A DNA stretch of 53,691 nucleotides, taken from NCBI GenBank assembly GCA_944322865.1, contig CALUQJ010000004.1, positions 1 through 53,691 on the forward strand, written 5' to 3'. This DNA comes from Candidatus Gastranaerophilales bacterium. Lineage in GTDB: Bacteria; Cyanobacteriota; Vampirovibrionia; Gastranaerophilales; Gastranaerophilaceae. Under the pieces are notes generated by a model. That model did not search any database, was not told the DNA's origin, and saw only the letters and a program-made list of their open reading frames with translations. The position numbers and the translations under genes were made by a program. How positions within the stretch are numbered: the first letter of the stretch is position 1; every line of letters starts with the position of its first letter. Of the stretch, positions 21,496 through 45,334 are shown piece by piece.

Positions 21496-21526
21496 ACGCA
21501 AGTGGTTAAACCGTTTGCGTAGTTTT
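21496..21526 (+). terminator. Terminator of trpS
   Basis: ACGCAA pairs with TTGCGT around an inner GGTT/AACC stem, with two G-T pairs between (21496-21520), then AGTTTTATT. It sits between the convergent trpS and helicase genes. Confidence 0.5.
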
Positions 21527-24500
21527 ATTCAACAGCAAGAACTCTGTCAAGACAGACTTTCGGTGAATATTGCCATTCACGGAAGGTTATTCGCTTAACC
21601 TTAAATCCGCAGCGTTCAAGTATTGCCTGTTTTTTCATATTAGTCATATGATAGAGTTTTTGGCTATCTTCTACACCGTCAACTTCTATGATAAATTTAT
21701 TATCGACAAGTAAATCAGCACTCAAACCGGCTATTTCAACACCTGTCTGTACATTGTGTCCAAGCTCGCGGATTTGACCTGCAATTTCCCGTTCAAGTGA
21801 ATTTTTATAAATATTTTCATCTATTTCACCTGATATTCCGGCATTGCGGCGGTTCTGGTATTCCTGAATAAATGAAATATAATTTCTGAAATGCCCTTCA
21901 GGAAGTTCTCGCGGATTACGTGAGATGAAATTGATAACCTTATTACGTCCGCGTGTAATCGCAACATTAAAAAGATTTGATTTTTGCAAGAATATAAGGC
22001 TTTGGGTATAACTGTTATCCGCTACTGCCCATGAGATAAGCATTATATCTCGTTCATCACCTTGGAAGGTGTGTGCTGTACCTATTTCTATCTGGTGTTT
22101 TCTTATCATGTGATCAGATAAGACTTTAGCTACAGAAATTTTTAACTGTTCAACCTGCGCCCTGAACGGTGAAATTATACCGATAGAAACCGGATTTTCA
22201 GGGTTCTGGCGTTCGTCTTCCACGACTATTTCATAAAGCCGTTTAACGACAGCTTCTATTTCCGGCATGTTACGGGTTGCGTCAAAATCGACCTTGCCGT
22301 CAGGAACTTCTACAAGTTCAAGTACATTTTCGTCCGGTCTATCTTTGCGCATAACACGGATTCTGTCGTTGTAAAATTCGTGGTTAGAAAAGTTGATTAT
22401 TGGCGGCAGACTTCTAAAATGCTCGTCCAGCATAACGCTGTTCATAGAATAGTAATCTGCAAGATCGAACATGGAATTTGTTCTGAAACGCCACATAAGC
22501 TGGTATTTGTCTGGGATACCGTACTGGCTTAAAAATGATTGTTCTTTTGCTTTTTCAAGAAAAGACAAATGCGGTAATTGCTTGTCATCACCTACTATTA
22601 CAGCACGTTTTGCACGGAACATTATAGGGAAACAGCTTGCTATATCGCATTGAGAGGCTTCATCAATAATCGCCACATCAAACATCCCCGGTTTTAGCGG
22701 TAAAGAATCTGAAACGGCATAAGTTGTAACACACCAGCATGGAAAAGCTTCCAAAAGCGGCTTAAAGTCCTCTTCTTCCAGAATATTGGTTTGCAGTCGC
22801 TTGCGGGAAGTTACAAGTGATTTTGCATGTATTTTCAGGCGCCGGCGCTTGTTTTCGTCACGCAAAAGCGCTTTTAGAGCTTCACGGCGTTTGTTCTTTA
22901 AAATATTTTTGGCAAGTGTACCCTGTTTCTTTTTCATTTGGCGGATTTGTTCTGTCAAAATATGCAGGTTGCCGTTTTTCTGAATATCAGATTCAATTTT
23001 ATTGAGCCTGAATTGCATTTCAGCAAGTTCCAGTTCTGTTCTAAGTCTGTTTATATTCTCTAAATTTACCTCAAAATCTTTTGATTTAAGAATTTTTTTC
23101 AGTTGATTTAAACTTGTGAAATTCGCAATGTTTGCAAAGAAACCGGATTTTGCCATGTTTTTTTCAAGAGTTTTAAGGATAAGCGCAACAGTTTCAATTT
23201 CAACGCGATTTAGAGAAGATTGGATAAATTGCATTTTACCTGTTGTTTTTTTGTTTTCAAGAAATTCAAGATCCAGATCATGCCAGTCTTGCTCAAGTTT
23301 AATTATTTTTTCGCATTTGTTTTCATAGTCTTTTAGAAGATTCAGATGATCTTTCATATCTTTTGTGTCTACAAGCAGAATATTTTCTACATCGCTGTCC
23401 AGATCTTCGTTGTTTGCAATAAGGTTATTCAAATCGTTGCTGAGCTGGCGTTGGTAATTCAGCCTTCCTGCACGGAGCGCCATATGCTTTGCGCCTAAAT
23501 CGTTCAGTCTGTCTGCCACAACATCAACGGCTTTGTCCATACGGGAAGCAACAAGAACGGTTTTGCCGTTTGCAACAAGGTGTGCAACAAGATTCACGAT
23601 CGTCTGGGATTTACCTGTTCCTGGAGGTCCTTGTACCGCAATAAATTTTGTATTATCTATGTTTTTTATTACCTGCTGCTGGCTGTCGCTTAATGAAAGC
23701 GGTGTGATCGGATAAAAATCAGTTATTTTTTTCAAATCCTGAACAGGTACTGATTTCTCTTTTGACTGCGCGTATTCTTCATTAATTATATTAAGAGCTG
23801 TTTCACGGTATACTCCGCTCGGTTTTTCGGCTATCTGCATTAACTCATGCAAAACCCCTGCTGTGACAGCCGGACGTTTAGTCAAAATTATGGCGCTTTG
23901 ATAAGTGACTGAAATTTTTTCCAGTTTAAGCGATTGTTTTTGGGTATTTTCTTCTTCCTCAATAACATCATCAATATTGTCGCCGTCGATTTTTTCTTTA
24001 TAAAAATCTTTTGTTGCTTTGGAGATATTATCTTCTTCTGAATAATCTGCTTTATTTGTACTTATTTCTATTTCAGGAACAAGTGATTTGAGAGTTGTTA
24101 AGAAGATGCTCAGTTTTTCATCAGTAATCGGCAGATCAGGAACAACATCCAGAATACCTTCAAGCAGTAAATCAACTTCATCTTCATCATCGTTTTTTCG
24201 CATAAGCGCTGCCAGCGCCCCTGTGTTGAGCGACAAAACCTCATCCAACGGAATGCAGTTGATATTTACGCCGTTGCGCTCAAGTTTGCAAGGCATATAT
24301 AAAAGAGGGGTTAAAAATTCATTTTGTTTTTTTGTTTTAGAACTTTTGCCGACAAGAAAAAGATAACCATAAATCAGATATTTATCTTTTTGCCCTAATT
24401 CACTTTGAATCATTAATTCTGTAAGTTTCGGGTTGCTGCCGTCAAGCGCAATATATTCCTGAAAATTAGTAAAAAGCTGTTCTTCACCCGGTAAGAAAAT

Positions 24501-24647
24501 CCATTTGTTATCCTTGTCGCCTTTGAGGTTACGGAAGGTAGAACTTTTTACTTCTTCCCGCACACAATCGTGAAGATACTGGCTTAATTTTTTTATAAAA
24601 CTGTTATTAAATGCTGAATTAATGGCTTTGCCTGCTTCTTGAAGCAT
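21525..24647 (-). CDS. SF1 helicase (DNA2/UPF1-like) with C-terminal nuclease domain
   Basis: A 1040-aa protein. The N-terminal ~300 residues are of unknown type. Then come helicase motifs: Walker A QGPPGTGKSQTIV (about 337-349), a long coiled-coil insertion (about 430-620), Walker B VAIIDEASQCD (about 655), GDDKQLPHLSFL, EHFRSLPPIINFSNHEFYND, GTAHTFQGDERDIMLISWAV (about 850) and VAITRGRN. The last ~90 residues (EREIAGQIRELGHNVQ, then SADLLVDNKFIIEVDG) match a Vsr/DUF559-type PD-(D/E)xK nuclease fold with its D...ExD residues. Such helicase-nuclease fusions occur in repair and in phage defence; nothing beside it decides which. AAGGAG precedes the ATG. Confidence 0.9.
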   Translation of the reverse strand: MLQEAGKAINSAFNNSFIKKLSQYLHDCVREEVKSSTFRNLKGDKDNKWIFLPGEEQLFTNFQEYIALDGSNPKLTELMIQSELGQKDKYLIYGYLFLVGKSSKTKKQNEFLTPLLYMPCKLERNGVNINCIPLDEVLSLNTGALAALMRKNDDEDEVDLLLEGILDVVPDLPITDEKLSIFLTTLKSLVPEIEISTNKADYSEEDNISKATKDFYKEKIDGDNIDDVIEEEENTQKQSLKLEKISVTYQSAIILTKRPAVTAGVLHELMQIAEKPSGVYRETALNIINEEYAQSKEKSVPVQDLKKITDFYPITPLSLSDSQQQVIKNIDNTKFIAVQGPPGTGKSQTIVNLVAHLVANGKTVLVASRMDKAVDVVADRLNDLGAKHMALRAGRLNYQRQLSNDLNNLIANNEDLDSDVENILLVDTKDMKDHLNLLKDYENKCEKIIKLEQDWHDLDLEFLENKKTTGKMQFIQSSLNRVEIETVALILKTLEKNMAKSGFFANIANFTSLNQLKKILKSKDFEVNLENINRLRTELELAEMQFRLNKIESDIQKNGNLHILTEQIRQMKKKQGTLAKNILKNKRREALKALLRDENKRRRLKIHAKSLVTSRKRLQTNILEEEDFKPLLEAFPCWCVTTYAVSDSLPLKPGMFDVAIIDEASQCDIASCFPIMFRAKRAVIVGDDKQLPHLSFLEKAKEQSFLSQYGIPDKYQLMWRFRTNSMFDLADYYSMNSVMLDEHFRSLPPIINFSNHEFYNDRIRVMRKDRPDENVLELVEVPDGKVDFDATRNMPEIEAVVKRLYEIVVEDERQNPENPVSIGIISPFRAQVEQLKISVAKVLSDHMIRKHQIEIGTAHTFQGDERDIMLISWAVADNSYTQSLIFLQKSNLFNVAITRGRNKVINFISRNPRELPEGHFRNYISFIQEYQNRRNAGISGEIDENIYKNSLEREIAGQIRELGHNVQTGVEIAGLSADLLVDNKFIIEVDGVEDSQKLYHMTNMKKQAILERCGFKVKRITFREWQYSPKVCLDRVLAVE

Positions 24648-39569: not shown

Positions 39570-40067
39570 ATGCAAGTTATATTAAAAAAAGATGTTCAAA
39601 ACCTCGGTGAAGCAGGTGACATCGTTAACGTTAAAGACGGTTATGCAAGAAATTATCTTCTTCCGCAATCCGTTGCAGAAATAGCTACTGAAGGCGCTTT
39701 GAAAAACCGTGAAAATAATCTCGCAAGAATCAAAGCTAAACAGGAAAAATTACATCAGGAAGCGCTCGCTACTGCTGAAAAAATTGAAAAATTCGCTAAA
39801 TTGGAACTTTCTGCTAAAGCTGGTGAATCCGGCAAACTCTTCGGTACTATCACAACTAAAAAATTGACAGAAGAACTTCACTCTCAGGCTGGTATTGATA
39901 TTGACAGAAAAAATGTTTCTCTCAATGCTCCGATTAACAAAATTGGTGAATATACTATGCTTATTAAATTGACTTCAAAAGTTAAATGTGAATTGGCTGT
40001 AAGCGTTACAGCATCAGAAATTCTTAAAGAATCAGTTGAAGAAACTGACACTGTTGAAGAAGCGTAA
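39570..40067 (+). CDS. rplI: Ribosomal protein bL9
   Basis: A 165-aa protein of the large ribosomal subunit. MQVILKKDVQNLGEAGDIVN and the signature GYARNYLLPQ at the N-terminus bind 23S rRNA. A long helix (about 50-75) leads to the C-terminal domain with GKLFGTITTKKLTEEL. A short acidic tail follows. AAAGGAG precedes the ATG. It is unusual in having neither rpsF nor rpsR beside it. Confidence 0.96.
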   Translation: MQVILKKDVQNLGEAGDIVNVKDGYARNYLLPQSVAEIATEGALKNRENNLARIKAKQEKLHQEALATAEKIEKFAKLELSAKAGESGKLFGTITTKKLTEELHSQAGIDIDRKNVSLNAPINKIGEYTMLIKLTSKVKCELAVSVTASEILKESVEETDTVEEA

Positions 40068-40081
40068 GAGTTAAAAAACTG

Positions 40082-41176
40082 ATGAACAGCAGAACGGATA
40101 ATTTAACTTTAGAATGTATGGCTATCGGCTCACTTCCTCACCGTGATTTAGAAAAAGCTATGCAGGTGGTAAAACATAATTTTAAAACTATACCGTTCTG
40201 GCCGCAACTCACTAAGCTTAACAAAAACGAGGACATGATTTTGCAATTTTTGGAAAACATGCCTTCGTTTTTTGTTGACAAAAATTCTGAAAAATCTTAT
40301 CTTGAAACTGAAAGTGACAAGTTTTTAGAAGATATAGAACAGTTTTATACTGATTATGAAGAAATTCTTGCGGATATTAACTCCGATGTAATTGAAAAAT
40401 ATGCTATATCATCTGAAAATTCAGCCGCTTTTCCTGAATTGATAAAAATTATAAAATCAGAAAAACCGTTGTTCGCAAAAGGTCAGATTGTCGGACCTTT
40501 TACACTATCTACAACACTTGTAGACAAAAGCGGGCGTTGCGCGTTTTATGATGAAACCCTAAGAGAAATTATAGTTAAGACTTTGACCATAAAAGCCCTC
40601 TGGCAAATTAAGCATATAAAGGCGGCTAATCCGGATACAAAACCGGTTATATTTATTGATGAGCCTTCTATTTCTCAACTCGGCACCTCAGCATATCTCA
40701 CAATTTCACAAAATGATGTATTAGAAATGCTTAAAGAGATCTCTGACATTATAAAATCCAACGGCGGTTTGAGCGCAATACATTGCTGTGGTAAATGTGA
40801 TTGGACAGTGCCTTTAAAAGCTGCTGTTGATATAATAAATCTTGATGCTTATGCTTATTCTCAGAACCTCAGTGTATTTGACAAAGATGTACAAAAATTT
40901 CTTGAAAACGGCGGTAAAATTGCCTGGGGAATAGTTCCGACATTAGATAAAGAAGCACTTAAAAAAGCAGAACTGTCTGAGCTTGTGTCAATTTATGAAA
41001 AAGCTGTTAAATATTTGACTCAAAAAGGAATAGATGAGAAACTTGTTATAACAAATTCCATGATTACTCCGTCCTGCGGCGCCGGGGGATTGGACGAAAC
41101 TCTTGCAGAAAAAGCAATGAATTTAACTAAACTGTTATCAGATAATCTAAAGGAGAAATATTCTATTGACAACTAA
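40082..41176 (+). CDS. Short MetE-like (core) methyltransferase
   Basis: A 364-aa protein of the MetE/UroD-like barrel superfamily, lacking the N-terminal half of full MetE. AIGSLPHRDLEKAMQVV opens the barrel. FIDEPSISQLGTSAY (near 195-210), IHCCGKCDW (about 232-240, candidate His and Cys zinc ligands) and ITPSCGAGGLDE (about 328-340, third Cys ligand) match the zinc-thiol methyltransferase core. Short MetE proteins of this kind can take methyl groups from corrinoid proteins rather than folates. The substrate here is not known. The neighbouring CooC-like ATPase overlaps its end, pointing to a metal or corrinoid link. Confidence 0.75.
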   Translation: MNSRTDNLTLECMAIGSLPHRDLEKAMQVVKHNFKTIPFWPQLTKLNKNEDMILQFLENMPSFFVDKNSEKSYLETESDKFLEDIEQFYTDYEEILADINSDVIEKYAISSENSAAFPELIKIIKSEKPLFAKGQIVGPFTLSTTLVDKSGRCAFYDETLREIIVKTLTIKALWQIKHIKAANPDTKPVIFIDEPSISQLGTSAYLTISQNDVLEMLKEISDIIKSNGGLSAIHCCGKCDWTVPLKAAVDIINLDAYAYSQNLSVFDKDVQKFLENGGKIAWGIVPTLDKEALKKAELSELVSIYEKAVKYLTQKGIDEKLVITNSMITPSCGAGGLDETLAEKAMNLTKLLSDNLKEKYSIDN

Positions 41177-41912
41177 ACTCGCAGTTACAGGCAAAAGCGG
41201 AAGCGGAAAAACAACTATAACCAAGGCTTTTTTAGCTATATTTCAAGAACTTTTTCCTGACAAATCAATACTTTTATTTGACAATGATTTGAGTGCTGAA
41301 TTGTCACACAGTTTTGGATTGGATATACGAAATACTATTTACGGTATAAGAAGCGGCAAGCACGAATATAAAACAGGCATTCCTGAAGGTATGACCAAGC
41401 AGGAATATGTTGAATGGGCAATGGAGGACATTGTTGTTTCGTTGAACGATAACGTTGATATTATTGTTTCATGGTTTGTTGGCTCAAAAGACTGTCGCTG
41501 CCCTATAACAGGTCAGATTAATGACGCTGTTTTAAAACTTATAGACAGATATGATATTGTTATTTTTGATTGTGAGTTTGACTTAAAATATCTAAATCAG
41601 CTTGTTGATACAGATATAGACACAACGATTATTGTTGCAAACCCGACAGATGAGAGCGCTCATCTTGCAAAACGGATAGAAGAATTTAGTGCCAAATACG
41701 CAGCCGGCGGACAATTAGGGGTTGTAATTAATAAAGTTGCTGGATATGATCTGACATCTGTTTACGATTTGCTTAAAAAATACGAATTGGATGTGCTTGG
41801 TATAATTCCTTACGATAAAGATTTGGAAAATAACGGAGTGGAGAAGATCTCCAAACCTGTTCAGGAAGCAATAAAACAGTTTTATTTTAGACTAAACCTG
41901 CCGCAGGAATAA
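41166..41912 (+). CDS. CooC/MinD-family ATPase
   Basis: A 248-aa P-loop protein. The deviant-Walker-like loop is TGKSGSGKTT (8-17), then LLFDNDLSAELSHSFGL, DIVIFDCEFDLKYL and GVVINKV near 190. This resembles the CooC-type ATPases that help insert nickel or reactivate corrinoid proteins. It starts at a TTG with AAAGGAG 12 bases upstream, overlapping the MetE-like gene by 11 bases. The start is fixed by the P-loop, which lies only eight residues in. A central C-x-C (DCRCPITGQ) could bind metal. Function by context is uncertain. Confidence 0.75.
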   Translation: MTTKLAVTGKSGSGKTTITKAFLAIFQELFPDKSILLFDNDLSAELSHSFGLDIRNTIYGIRSGKHEYKTGIPEGMTKQEYVEWAMEDIVVSLNDNVDIIVSWFVGSKDCRCPITGQINDAVLKLIDRYDIVIFDCEFDLKYLNQLVDTDIDTTIIVANPTDESAHLAKRIEEFSAKYAAGGQLGVVINKVAGYDLTSVYDLLKKYELDVLGIIPYDKDLENNGVEKISKPVQEAIKQFYFRLNLPQE

Positions 41913-42831: not shown

Positions 42832-43962
42832 ATGTTTGAAAACTATACCGAAATATTAAAAAATCTTGAAGAGGCGGCACATCTTAGAAAGATACAGGAT
42901 TTTACTGCAAAAGATGAAAAATACATCTACATAGCCGGCAAAAGACTTTTAAATTTATCTTCTAATAATTATCTGGGATTTGCCGATAATAGAAGAGTTA
43001 CCGAACAATTTTTACAGACAGCAGGGGCGAAATATTCATTCGGAAGCGCGTCTGCAAGACTTTTGACAGGGACACTGCCTGTATACAAGGAACTAGAATC
43101 ACTTATTTGTGAACTGTTTCAAACTGAAGGTACATTGCTTTTTAATAGCGGCTATCATGCCAATGTCGGAGTTAACAGTTCTTTAGCGCAGAAAGGCGAC
43201 GTGATTTTTTCGGATAAACTTAACCATGCCAGTATAATTGACGGTATGCAGCTTTCGCAGGGGAAATTTTTCAGATATCCGCATAATGATATGGAAGCAT
43301 TAGAAAAATTGCTTAAACGTGAGCGGAATAATTTTAGGGACGCGGTTATTGTGTCAGAAAGTGTTTTCAGTATGGATGGTGATATCGCTGATATTGAAAA
43401 ACTTGTTGAATTAAAAAACAGGTATAGTTGTATGCTTGTTCTTGATGAAGCACATGCATTTGGTGTGTTCGGGAAAAAAGGACTGGGGGTTTGTGAAACT
43501 CTCGGGCTTATTGAGCAAATAGATTTAATAGTCGGGACTTTTGGTAAAGCAATAGGATCTGTCGGGGCGTTTGCAACCGGAAAAAAAGTTTTGATAGATT
43601 ACTTGATTAACAAGGCGAGATCTTTTATTTTTTCAACTTCTCTCCCGCCTGTTAACATAGCTTTCTCAAAATGGATTATAGAAAATGAATTGCCGAAAAC
43701 GTACTTAAAACGGCAAAAAATGCTGGAACTGGGCAAAAAGTTTAATAGTCAAAGTCATATTGTACCGGTAATTATAGGAGAGAATGACAAAACGGTTGAG
43801 ATGTGTGATATTTTGTACCAAAACGGATATTTTACGCTTCCTATCCGTCCCCCGACCGTACCTGTAGGTACTTCAAGAATAAGAATTTCTCTTACAACAG
43901 AAATTGAAGAAAAAGATATGGATAAACTTCTGGAGATTTTAAAATGCAATATTACTGGCTAA
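42832..43962 (+). CDS. bioF: 8-amino-7-oxononanoate synthase
   Basis: A 376-aa PLP enzyme that condenses pimeloyl-ACP (or -CoA) with L-alanine. NLSSNNYLGFAD, GSASARLLTGT, LVLDEAHAFGVFGKKGLG and GTFGKAIGSVGAF are typical; the Lys in TFGKA (about residue 238) holds PLP. Related enzymes (2-amino-3-ketobutyrate ligase) share the fold, but the following bioG and bioC settle the role. It overlaps bioG by 19 bases. It probably has a leaderless mRNA. Confidence 0.92.
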   Translation: MFENYTEILKNLEEAAHLRKIQDFTAKDEKYIYIAGKRLLNLSSNNYLGFADNRRVTEQFLQTAGAKYSFGSASARLLTGTLPVYKELESLICELFQTEGTLLFNSGYHANVGVNSSLAQKGDVIFSDKLNHASIIDGMQLSQGKFFRYPHNDMEALEKLLKRERNNFRDAVIVSESVFSMDGDIADIEKLVELKNRYSCMLVLDEAHAFGVFGKKGLGVCETLGLIEQIDLIVGTFGKAIGSVGAFATGKKVLIDYLINKARSFIFSTSLPPVNIAFSKWIIENELPKTYLKRQKMLELGKKFNSQSHIVPVIIGENDKTVEMCDILYQNGYFTLPIRPPTVPVGTSRIRISLTTEIEEKDMDKLLEILKCNITG

Positions 43963-44606
43963 ACAGAAATAACAATGAAAGTTTAATAATATTTTTTGGC
44001 GGTTGGAGTTTTGATTATAAACCGTTTGAATTTCTTGAATGCGGGAATAATGATGTATTGATGTTTTATGATTACACAGAGCCTTTGCTGCCGGAGAATA
44101 TATTTGACGAAAAGGCTTACAAAAATATCCGGCTTGTAAGCTGGTCAATGGGGGTTTTTATTGCTTATTATTTAAGAGATAAACTTCCGGAGTTTAGTTA
44201 CAAACTGGCTGTGAACGGGACGCCTTTCCCTGTTGACAATACCCGCGGTATTCCGGAAAGGACATTCAATTTGACTTTACAATATGCAGAAACAGGTTTG
44301 CAGGGGAAGTTTTACAAGAATGTTTTTTCTAATGATGAATTTTTGGATAGATATAATAAAGCCGCTGTAGAGCGTTCTATCCCGGAGCGTGTTGCTGAGT
44401 TGGAAAGTCTTGATAAGTTTATCAAATCGCAGTCATTAACTTATGACGGCAAGTATTATGACAGTGCAATAGTCGGCATGCAGGACAAAATAATACCTTC
44501 CAAAAATCAGATTAACTGCTGGAATGATATAGCCATAAAACTTGAGTGCGGGCATTTTCCGTTTTATAATTTCAATAGCTGGGACGAAATATTACAATGC
44601 AGGTAA
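43944..44606 (+). CDS. bioG: Pimeloyl-ACP methyl ester carboxylesterase BioG
   Basis: A 220-aa alpha/beta hydrolase of the DUF452/BioG type. IIFFGGWSFDYKPFEFL near the N-terminus, SWSMGVFIAYYL with the nucleophile serine (about residue 70) and ECGHFPFYNFNSWDE with the catalytic His at the end are diagnostic. It removes the methyl ester from pimeloyl-ACP methyl ester, the step that ends BioC-primed chain growth. It overlaps bioF (19 bases) and bioC (10 bases), so the three are co-translated. Confidence 0.93.
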   Translation: MQYYWLNRNNNESLIIFFGGWSFDYKPFEFLECGNNDVLMFYDYTEPLLPENIFDEKAYKNIRLVSWSMGVFIAYYLRDKLPEFSYKLAVNGTPFPVDNTRGIPERTFNLTLQYAETGLQGKFYKNVFSNDEFLDRYNKAAVERSIPERVAELESLDKFIKSQSLTYDGKYYDSAIVGMQDKIIPSKNQINCWNDIAIKLECGHFPFYNFNSWDEILQCR

Positions 44607-45334
44607 ATCCGAAAACAGTAAAAAAACAGTTTGAAAAAAACATGGACAAATACGATTCTAATGCCTTTGTCCAGATTGAACTTGCACAAAAACTTATTAC
44701 AGCATTATCCGCTTGCAGGTCAGATTTTGACAGTATTCTTGAACAGGGCTGCGGCACTGGAATATTAAGCCGGCTGATTAAAGAAAAAATTTGTTACAGG
44801 CAATATTTTGCAAACGACATTGTTGAAAAGTCAAAAAATTATCTGGATAAAATTTTGCCTGAATACACTTTTATTTGTGGAAACGCGCAAAAAATTAAAC
44901 CTCCTGTAAAAGTGGACTTAATCATTTCAAATGCTATGTTTCAATGGTTTACTTCATTGGAAAACAGCTTAGAGCATTTTAAAGGTATTTTAGAAAAAAA
45001 TGGTTTGCTTGCATTTACAACATTTACACCTGAGAATTTTTGTGAAATTCGCCGGATTACAGGATTGTCACTGGATTATAAGTCAAAAGCAGACATAACA
45101 GCCGCACTTGAAAAAGATTATCAAATACTGCATATAGAAGAGTACAGGAAGGTTTTGAATTTTAACAATCCGCTTGAACTTCTTGCTCACATGAAAAATA
45201 CCGGTGTAAATTCGCTTGCGGCAAAAGGATTGACATTTAAAGAAGTTAAAGACTTTTGTGATAAATATCTTGAACTTTATCCTGATGTAAGATTGACTTA
45301 TGCCCCGATAATTGTTATTGCCGGATTAAAATAA
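44597..45334 (+). CDS. bioC: Malonyl-ACP O-methyltransferase BioC
   Basis: A 245-aa SAM-dependent methyltransferase. The start VKKQFEKNMDKYDSNAFVQ, the SAM-binding ILEQGCGTGILSRLI and the SNAMFQWFTSLENSL block are the BioC pattern. It methylates malonyl-ACP so that fatty acid synthesis can build the pimeloyl chain. With bioF and bioG it makes up the early biotin pathway; bioA, bioB and bioD are not in the window. Overlap with bioG is 10 bases. Confidence 0.93.
   Translation: MQVNPKTVKKQFEKNMDKYDSNAFVQIELAQKLITALSACRSDFDSILEQGCGTGILSRLIKEKICYRQYFANDIVEKSKNYLDKILPEYTFICGNAQKIKPPVKVDLIISNAMFQWFTSLENSLEHFKGILEKNGLLAFTTFTPENFCEIRRITGLSLDYKSKADITAALEKDYQILHIEEYRKVLNFNNPLELLAHMKNTGVNSLAAKGLTFKEVKDFCDKYLELYPDVRLTYAPIIVIAGLK

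Follow-up and report, generated by a model that had tools for sequence, protein, structure and literature searches.

What supplies the methyl group to a predicted methionine synthase that resembles half of MetE, and what does the ATPase encoded with it do? Two overlapping genes raise this question in a window of 53,691 nucleotides, the whole stretch of DNA that we analyzed, from the MAG of a gut bacterium assigned to Candidatus Gastranaerophilales, a non-photosynthetic cyanobacterial group (1.8 Mb in 103 contigs, 99.57% complete). The first gene, here called mes (40082..41176, + strand, ATG start), encodes a MetE-like core protein of 364 amino acids, predicted from its open reading frame, an AlphaFold2 model, and structural matches to be a MesB-like methionine synthase. 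The second (41166..41912, + strand, TTG start) encodes a SIMIBI ATPase of 248 amino acids (PF01656, 1e-12). An earlier note on this DNA had described a MetE-like core gene overlapping a CooC-like ATPase gene; both reading frames exist, they overlap by 11 bp, and their folds and motifs match that description. A likely ribosome-binding site for the ATPase gene, AAGGAG, lies inside the end of mes (41150..41155, + strand), upstream of the TTG, and with the overlap it supports the co-translation that the note had also proposed. Upstream of mes is rplI, encoding ribosomal protein bL9 (39570..40067, + strand; NCBIfam L9, 1.1e-41), the usual upstream neighbor of mes in the family. Directly downstream of the pair, bioF, bioG, and bioC stand in a row (42832-45334). 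Elsewhere in the window, a helicase-like protein of 1040 amino acids (21525-24647, - strand) resembles the anti-phage proteins ProA and Hhe in part, below family cut-offs.

The core had no Pfam or NCBIfam match at an E value of 1e-3. Hits to PPR proteins in the PDB search consisted of numerous tiny matches with designed repeats and were discarded as artefacts. Its AlphaFold2 model (pLDDT, 92.3; pTM, 0.92) aligned end to end with the C-terminal (zinc) half of MetE (3l7r, chain residues 401-743; Z score of 25.2 over 290 residues) and almost as well with the core synthase MesD (3rpd; Z score, 24.7). The folate-binding N-terminal half of MetE is missing from the core in this structural alignment, as expected from the earlier note, which had read the gene as a short MetE without that half. 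The core is a single domain and is not MetE proper; the MetE catalytic domain (PF01717) was matched in 0 of 75 genomes. BHMT gave a Z score of 13.8.

The residues of a MetE-type active site could be located by alignment, all on the + strand. S17 (40130..40132) aligns by motif with the homocysteine-binding Ser433 of E. coli MetE, and D193 of a DEP motif (40658..40660) is the presumed equivalent of MetE Asp599 (PMC7857596). Zinc ligands are predicted at H234 and C236 of the HxC motif H234-C235-C236 (40781..40789), at D255 (40844..40846; also Asp in MesB but Glu in MetE [PMC7857596]), and at C332 in TPSCGAG (41075..41077). S17, D193, H234, C236, D255, and C332 are invariant in an alignment of 15 core sequences; among 131 core homologs, S17 is retained in 126 and the zinc set in 127. 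The earlier note had sought zinc ligands in HCCGKC and SCGAGG. H234, C236, and C332 bear this out, but C235, although also invariant among the 15 sequences, occupies the x position of HxC and would not be expected to bind zinc; C239 of HCCGKC is not conserved in that alignment; and the remaining ligand, D255, lies elsewhere. Judged from these motifs, the core appears to carry the HCDC zinc set of MesB together with the serine and aspartate that hold homocysteine. We group it as MesB-like on its fold, its zinc set, and the company of AcsC/AcsD (see below), rather than on the similarity criterion of ≥130 bits, or ~29% identity, to the MesB of Dehalococcoides mccartyi.

A core of this fold might instead methylate another thiol, like the methylcobamide:CoM methyltransferases of the UROD superfamily. 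UROD- and MtbA-type folds do match the model (Z scores of 18.5 to 19.8), and 3 of the 15 core homologs have weak matches to the URO-D profile. However, the model fits the structures of MetE and MesD clearly better (Z scores of 24 to 25), S17 and D193, the residues that would hold homocysteine, do not vary in the alignment, and no alternative methionine synthase was detected. We regard a thiol other than homocysteine as highly unlikely.

The earlier note had looked to a corrinoid or metal-dependent partner as the methyl donor, naming a genome with neither corrinoid proteins nor cobamide uptake as evidence to the contrary. As to the proteins, the host genome encodes the two subunits of CoFeSP, the corrinoid iron-sulfur protein, found with PF03599 on contig C46. 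AcsC (372 amino acids) matches the CoFeSP large subunit (phmmer, 3.5e-67), and its model aligns with 2ycl (Z score of 27.9 over 359 residues); it matches both PF04060 and PF03599, with a shortened barrel. AcsD (256 amino acids) matches the small subunit (6.4e-33). The 4Fe-4S cysteines C23, C26, C31, and C48 are invariant in an AcsC alignment, and the loops of the B12 domain, where a cobamide would bind, are conserved. The same genome has an AcsE relative of 306 amino acids on contig C1 (1.4e-46 to 2yci), whose best NCBIfam matches (1.4e-56 and 2.6e-47) are both under the curated cut-offs, and a 283-amino-acid MetF frame on contig C25. AcsC is shortened in several genera: its size within the order ranges from 457 down to ~370 amino acids, with part of the TIM barrel lost (L088:7775-8893 versus L093 and L074). 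A FixCX-like pair near acsC in the host genome was considered as a conserved reductase and rejected, having been seen only in L088. An Rfam search near mes, acsDC, and acsE of the host genome gave RNase P and no riboswitch.

The enzymes that would otherwise make methionine, or use CoFeSP, were not detected. Searches for the MetH-type B12 domain together with the pterin domain identified no MetH in the host genome; its two pterin-domain matches are the AcsE relative and a presumed dihydropteroate synthase. No MetH activation domain scored above the cut-off in the order, with one match below it (G210). Acetyl-CoA synthase (CdhC/ACS) and RACo were each found in 0 of 75 genomes. The only match to the CODH/HCP family (PF03063) in the host genome (G000) is a 534-amino-acid protein in which the cysteines usual for the cluster are missing. 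With ACS absent and the sole CODH/HCP match without these cysteines, CoFeSP thus persists without fixation of CO2 to acetyl-CoA.

We next consider how the core and CoFeSP are distributed. Core homologs are present in 141 of 289 genomes of the class. Of the 193 genomes surveyed in the order, 115 combine an intact core with CoFeSP; 4 have only the core, 2 have only CoFeSP, and 72 have neither. The surveyed genomes are mostly MAGs, and because the panel is phylogenetically non-independent and the Fisher test ignores kinship, its value on these 193 genomes is not a real probability. Joint loss of the core and CoFeSP recurs within genera g2, g7, and g13, and hence reflects more than one event. Where CoFeSP has been lost, the core is absent, shortened, without its zinc site, or diverging. 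The homologs not counted as intact are 19 in genera g14 and g15, which lack CoFeSP, and those of three CoFeSP-lacking genomes that miss ~48 residues. This internal deletion was read at L044:6293-7165, in a CoFeSP-lacking species whose copy retains the zinc ligands, and likewise occurs in G128 and G156. The zinc site is gone only in four of the homologs read, all from g14 and g15 (L031, L032, L045, and L046; 28 to 32% identity), which have also lost the homocysteine residues and have probably taken on a new role.

Canonical-length MTHFR follows CoFeSP in the 75-genome panel, being present in 39 of 40 genomes with CoFeSP (the exception is G104) and in 1 of 35 without it (G190). Two core-bearing genomes without CoFeSP have short MTHFR-like frames as their sole MTHFR match (G153:C1:146909-147436, 247 amino acids; G272:C22:5756-6256, 201 amino acids), which may represent loss in progress. 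In the CoFeSP-lacking genera g21 and g28 (G180, G238, and G251), an MTHFR domain lies within frames of 615 to 628 amino acids, possibly fusions of a homocysteine methyltransferase with MTHFR that replace the route.

The gene neighborhoods connect the same proteins. The core and ATPase genes are adjacent in >110 fetched loci, so the arrangement is not due to chance, and the gene for L9 shares the locus with mes in 109. The usual order in relatives is mes-ATPase-folD; in the window's own genus, the gene after the ATPase gene is not folD. In five loci (L033, L034, L180, L182, and L186, the last probably from the same genome as L033) the order extends to mes-ATPase-folD-acsE. In L138, bL9-mes-ATPase-folD is followed by one gene in the opposite orientation and then by ftsH-acsD-acsC, and metF and acsE are linked in L109.

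We concluded that the core of the window is likely a MesB-like methionine synthase that methylates homocysteine with a methyl group carried by an ACS-less CoFeSP. The corrinoid donor proposed in the earlier note is thus well supported by the CoFeSP subunits and AcsE in the genome, the lack of MetH or detectable MetE, and the co-occurrence of the core with CoFeSP. Against this reading stand the absence of RACo, two genomes with CoFeSP that have neither core nor ATPase (G183 and G261, perhaps one assembly gap each), and four genomes with a full-length core and no CoFeSP (G112, G153, G237, and G272; the zinc site was read and is intact in G112 and G153). These last four would also be accounted for if the core used a different donor, such as free methylcobamide, some other corrinoid protein, or methyl-THF via a further partner, and CoFeSP acted elsewhere; the host genome has additional PF02310 proteins, including a radical SAM protein. 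That explanation is difficult to reconcile with the ratio of 115 genomes to 4, with a core that is absent, internally deleted, or devoid of its zinc site where CoFeSP is gone, with the linkage to acsE and acsDC, and with the lack of an N-terminal folate domain, and we consider it improbable. The loss of ACS and the shortening of AcsC in several genera could also mean that CoFeSP and the core are functionless relics of a lost Wood-Ljungdahl pathway. However, the catalytic residues and those of the 4Fe-4S motif and the B12 loops have been conserved in families across the order, and the proteins are lost jointly rather than by independent decay, leaving this the most remote of the alternatives.

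From the genes observed, with their families, motifs, linkage, and co-occurrence, we infer a route, including its reactions, docking, cobamide binding, and direction of methyl flow. FolD and MetF would produce methyl-THF, and AcsE would transfer the methyl group to CoFeSP (AcsC/AcsD) with its cobalt as Co(I). The resulting methyl-Co(III) CoFeSP would dock on the core, where the zinc held by H234, C236, D255, and C332 would present homocysteine as a thiolate, positioned by S17 and D193. Methyl transfer would then yield methionine and regenerate Co(I).

The role of the ATPase is a separate question. The ATPase belongs to the CbiA family, and its best relative in the PDB is CooC (3kje; 3.5e-07). 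It has the deviant Walker A motif GKSGSGKTT (41190..41216, + strand), conserved among 142 ATPases, and a CXC motif, C110-R-C112 (41493..41501, + strand), predicted to be a CooC-type metal site. It thus shares the deviant Walker A, the CXC motif, and the SIMIBI class with CooC, the nickel-insertion ATPase of CO dehydrogenase, but differs in that the only CODH/HCP-family protein here lacks the usual cluster ligands and in that its gene partner is folD. The earlier note had suggested that the ATPase reactivates the corrinoid partner. A dedicated reactivator or maturation factor in place of the missing RACo would fit the co-translation with the core, the retention of the 4Fe-4S domain of AcsC although RACo was found in 0 of 75 genomes, and the intact P-loop and CXC motif. 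However, 190 of the 193 genomes encode the ATPase, and of these 75 lack CoFeSP and 49 have no core gene at all; in the CoFeSP-lacking loci that were read, it still lies beside folD with both motifs intact. In addition, the core gene is not followed by the ATPase gene in two loci (L187 and L188), one of them from family f4. Because the ATPase is kept without CoFeSP or the core, and beside folD, we consider a dedicated reactivator unlikely. The earlier note had regarded pairing of the ATPase with unrelated genes as contrary evidence; this describes the data in part, in that the usual partner is not the core but folD, itself a C1-folate gene. Although co-translated with the core here, the ATPase belongs with folD and probably does not act as a reactivase dedicated to the corrinoid protein. 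A more far-reaching reading seems unlikely to us: an obligate methionine pathway of Gastranaerophilales whose CoFeSP, detached from CO2 fixation, serves solely to shuttle methyl groups, with AcsC shortened, and whose ATPase performs ATP-driven reactivation instead of RACo.

The divergent 534-amino-acid HCP-like protein is a candidate client of the ATPase on distribution alone. It occurs in nearly all genomes of the order alongside canonical HCP (L195:8339-9943; contig C17 of G000) and retains two N-terminal and two C-terminal cysteines. We rejected it as a proven client: both proteins are near-universal, they are not tightly matched, and their genes are not linked.

The core-MetE of Dehalococcoides uses methylcobalamin and has been proposed to take its methyl group from CoFeSP (PMC7005905, PMC7857596). 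The core described here is like MesB/core-MetE of D. mccartyi in its single MetE-like domain without a folate domain, its HCDC zinc set with Asp, and its co-occurrence with AcsC/AcsD. The typical, though not strictly defining, company of MesB-type enzymes is a Wood-Ljungdahl pathway with ACS, in contrast to the 75 genomes here. D. mccartyi has ACS (AcsB), CoFeSP, and core-MetE and lacks AcsE and MetF (PMC7005905), so its methyl group comes from acetyl-CoA; the host genome of the core described here lacks ACS and has AcsE and MetF, and hence the methyl group should come from methyl-THF. The proposed chemistry, from methyl-THF via Co(I) to zinc-bound homocysteine, is that of MetH overall, but Mes, AcsE, and AcsC/AcsD would share the work, and the homocysteine module would be of the MetE type. 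The 4Fe-4S domain, B12 domain, small subunit, and AcsE-type methyltransferase are those of Wood-Ljungdahl CoFeSP and AcsE, which here occur without ACS or RACo and, in several genera, with an AcsC of ~370 amino acids. MesD shares the core synthase fold but belongs to aerobic organisms and depends on oxygen and on MesX, whereas the Gastranaerophilales pathway is CoFeSP-linked. We found no paper in the open-licence literature on a CoFeSP-dependent methionine route in Gastranaerophilales, which is not proof of absence.

The nearest relative of the core found outside the order is a full-length homolog on a plasmid of Desulfosarcina ovata (27% identity, 149 bits). It lies near the nitric-oxide stress genes norR, FprA, and hcp and lacks the serine of the GS motif (L215:8980-10008). 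A plasmid search with the core gave this match and one weak partial match; searches of phages with the core and of plasmids with the ATPase gave none. In a scan of genome contigs for core relatives, Gastranaerophilales accounted for the matches listed.

Taken together, CoFeSP and its methyltransferase persist without ACS, apparently only for methionine, in a widespread lineage of gut and environmental relatives of cyanobacteria. The lineage offers a simple system in which to study methyl transfer from CoFeSP to an acceptor that is not ACS, and the reactivation of CoFeSP in the absence of RACo. If the route is correct, acsC and acsD alone would be no proof of CO2 fixation. It would explain how Gastranaerophilales synthesize methionine without MetH or MetE, and it would predict a need for cobamide that varies between genera.
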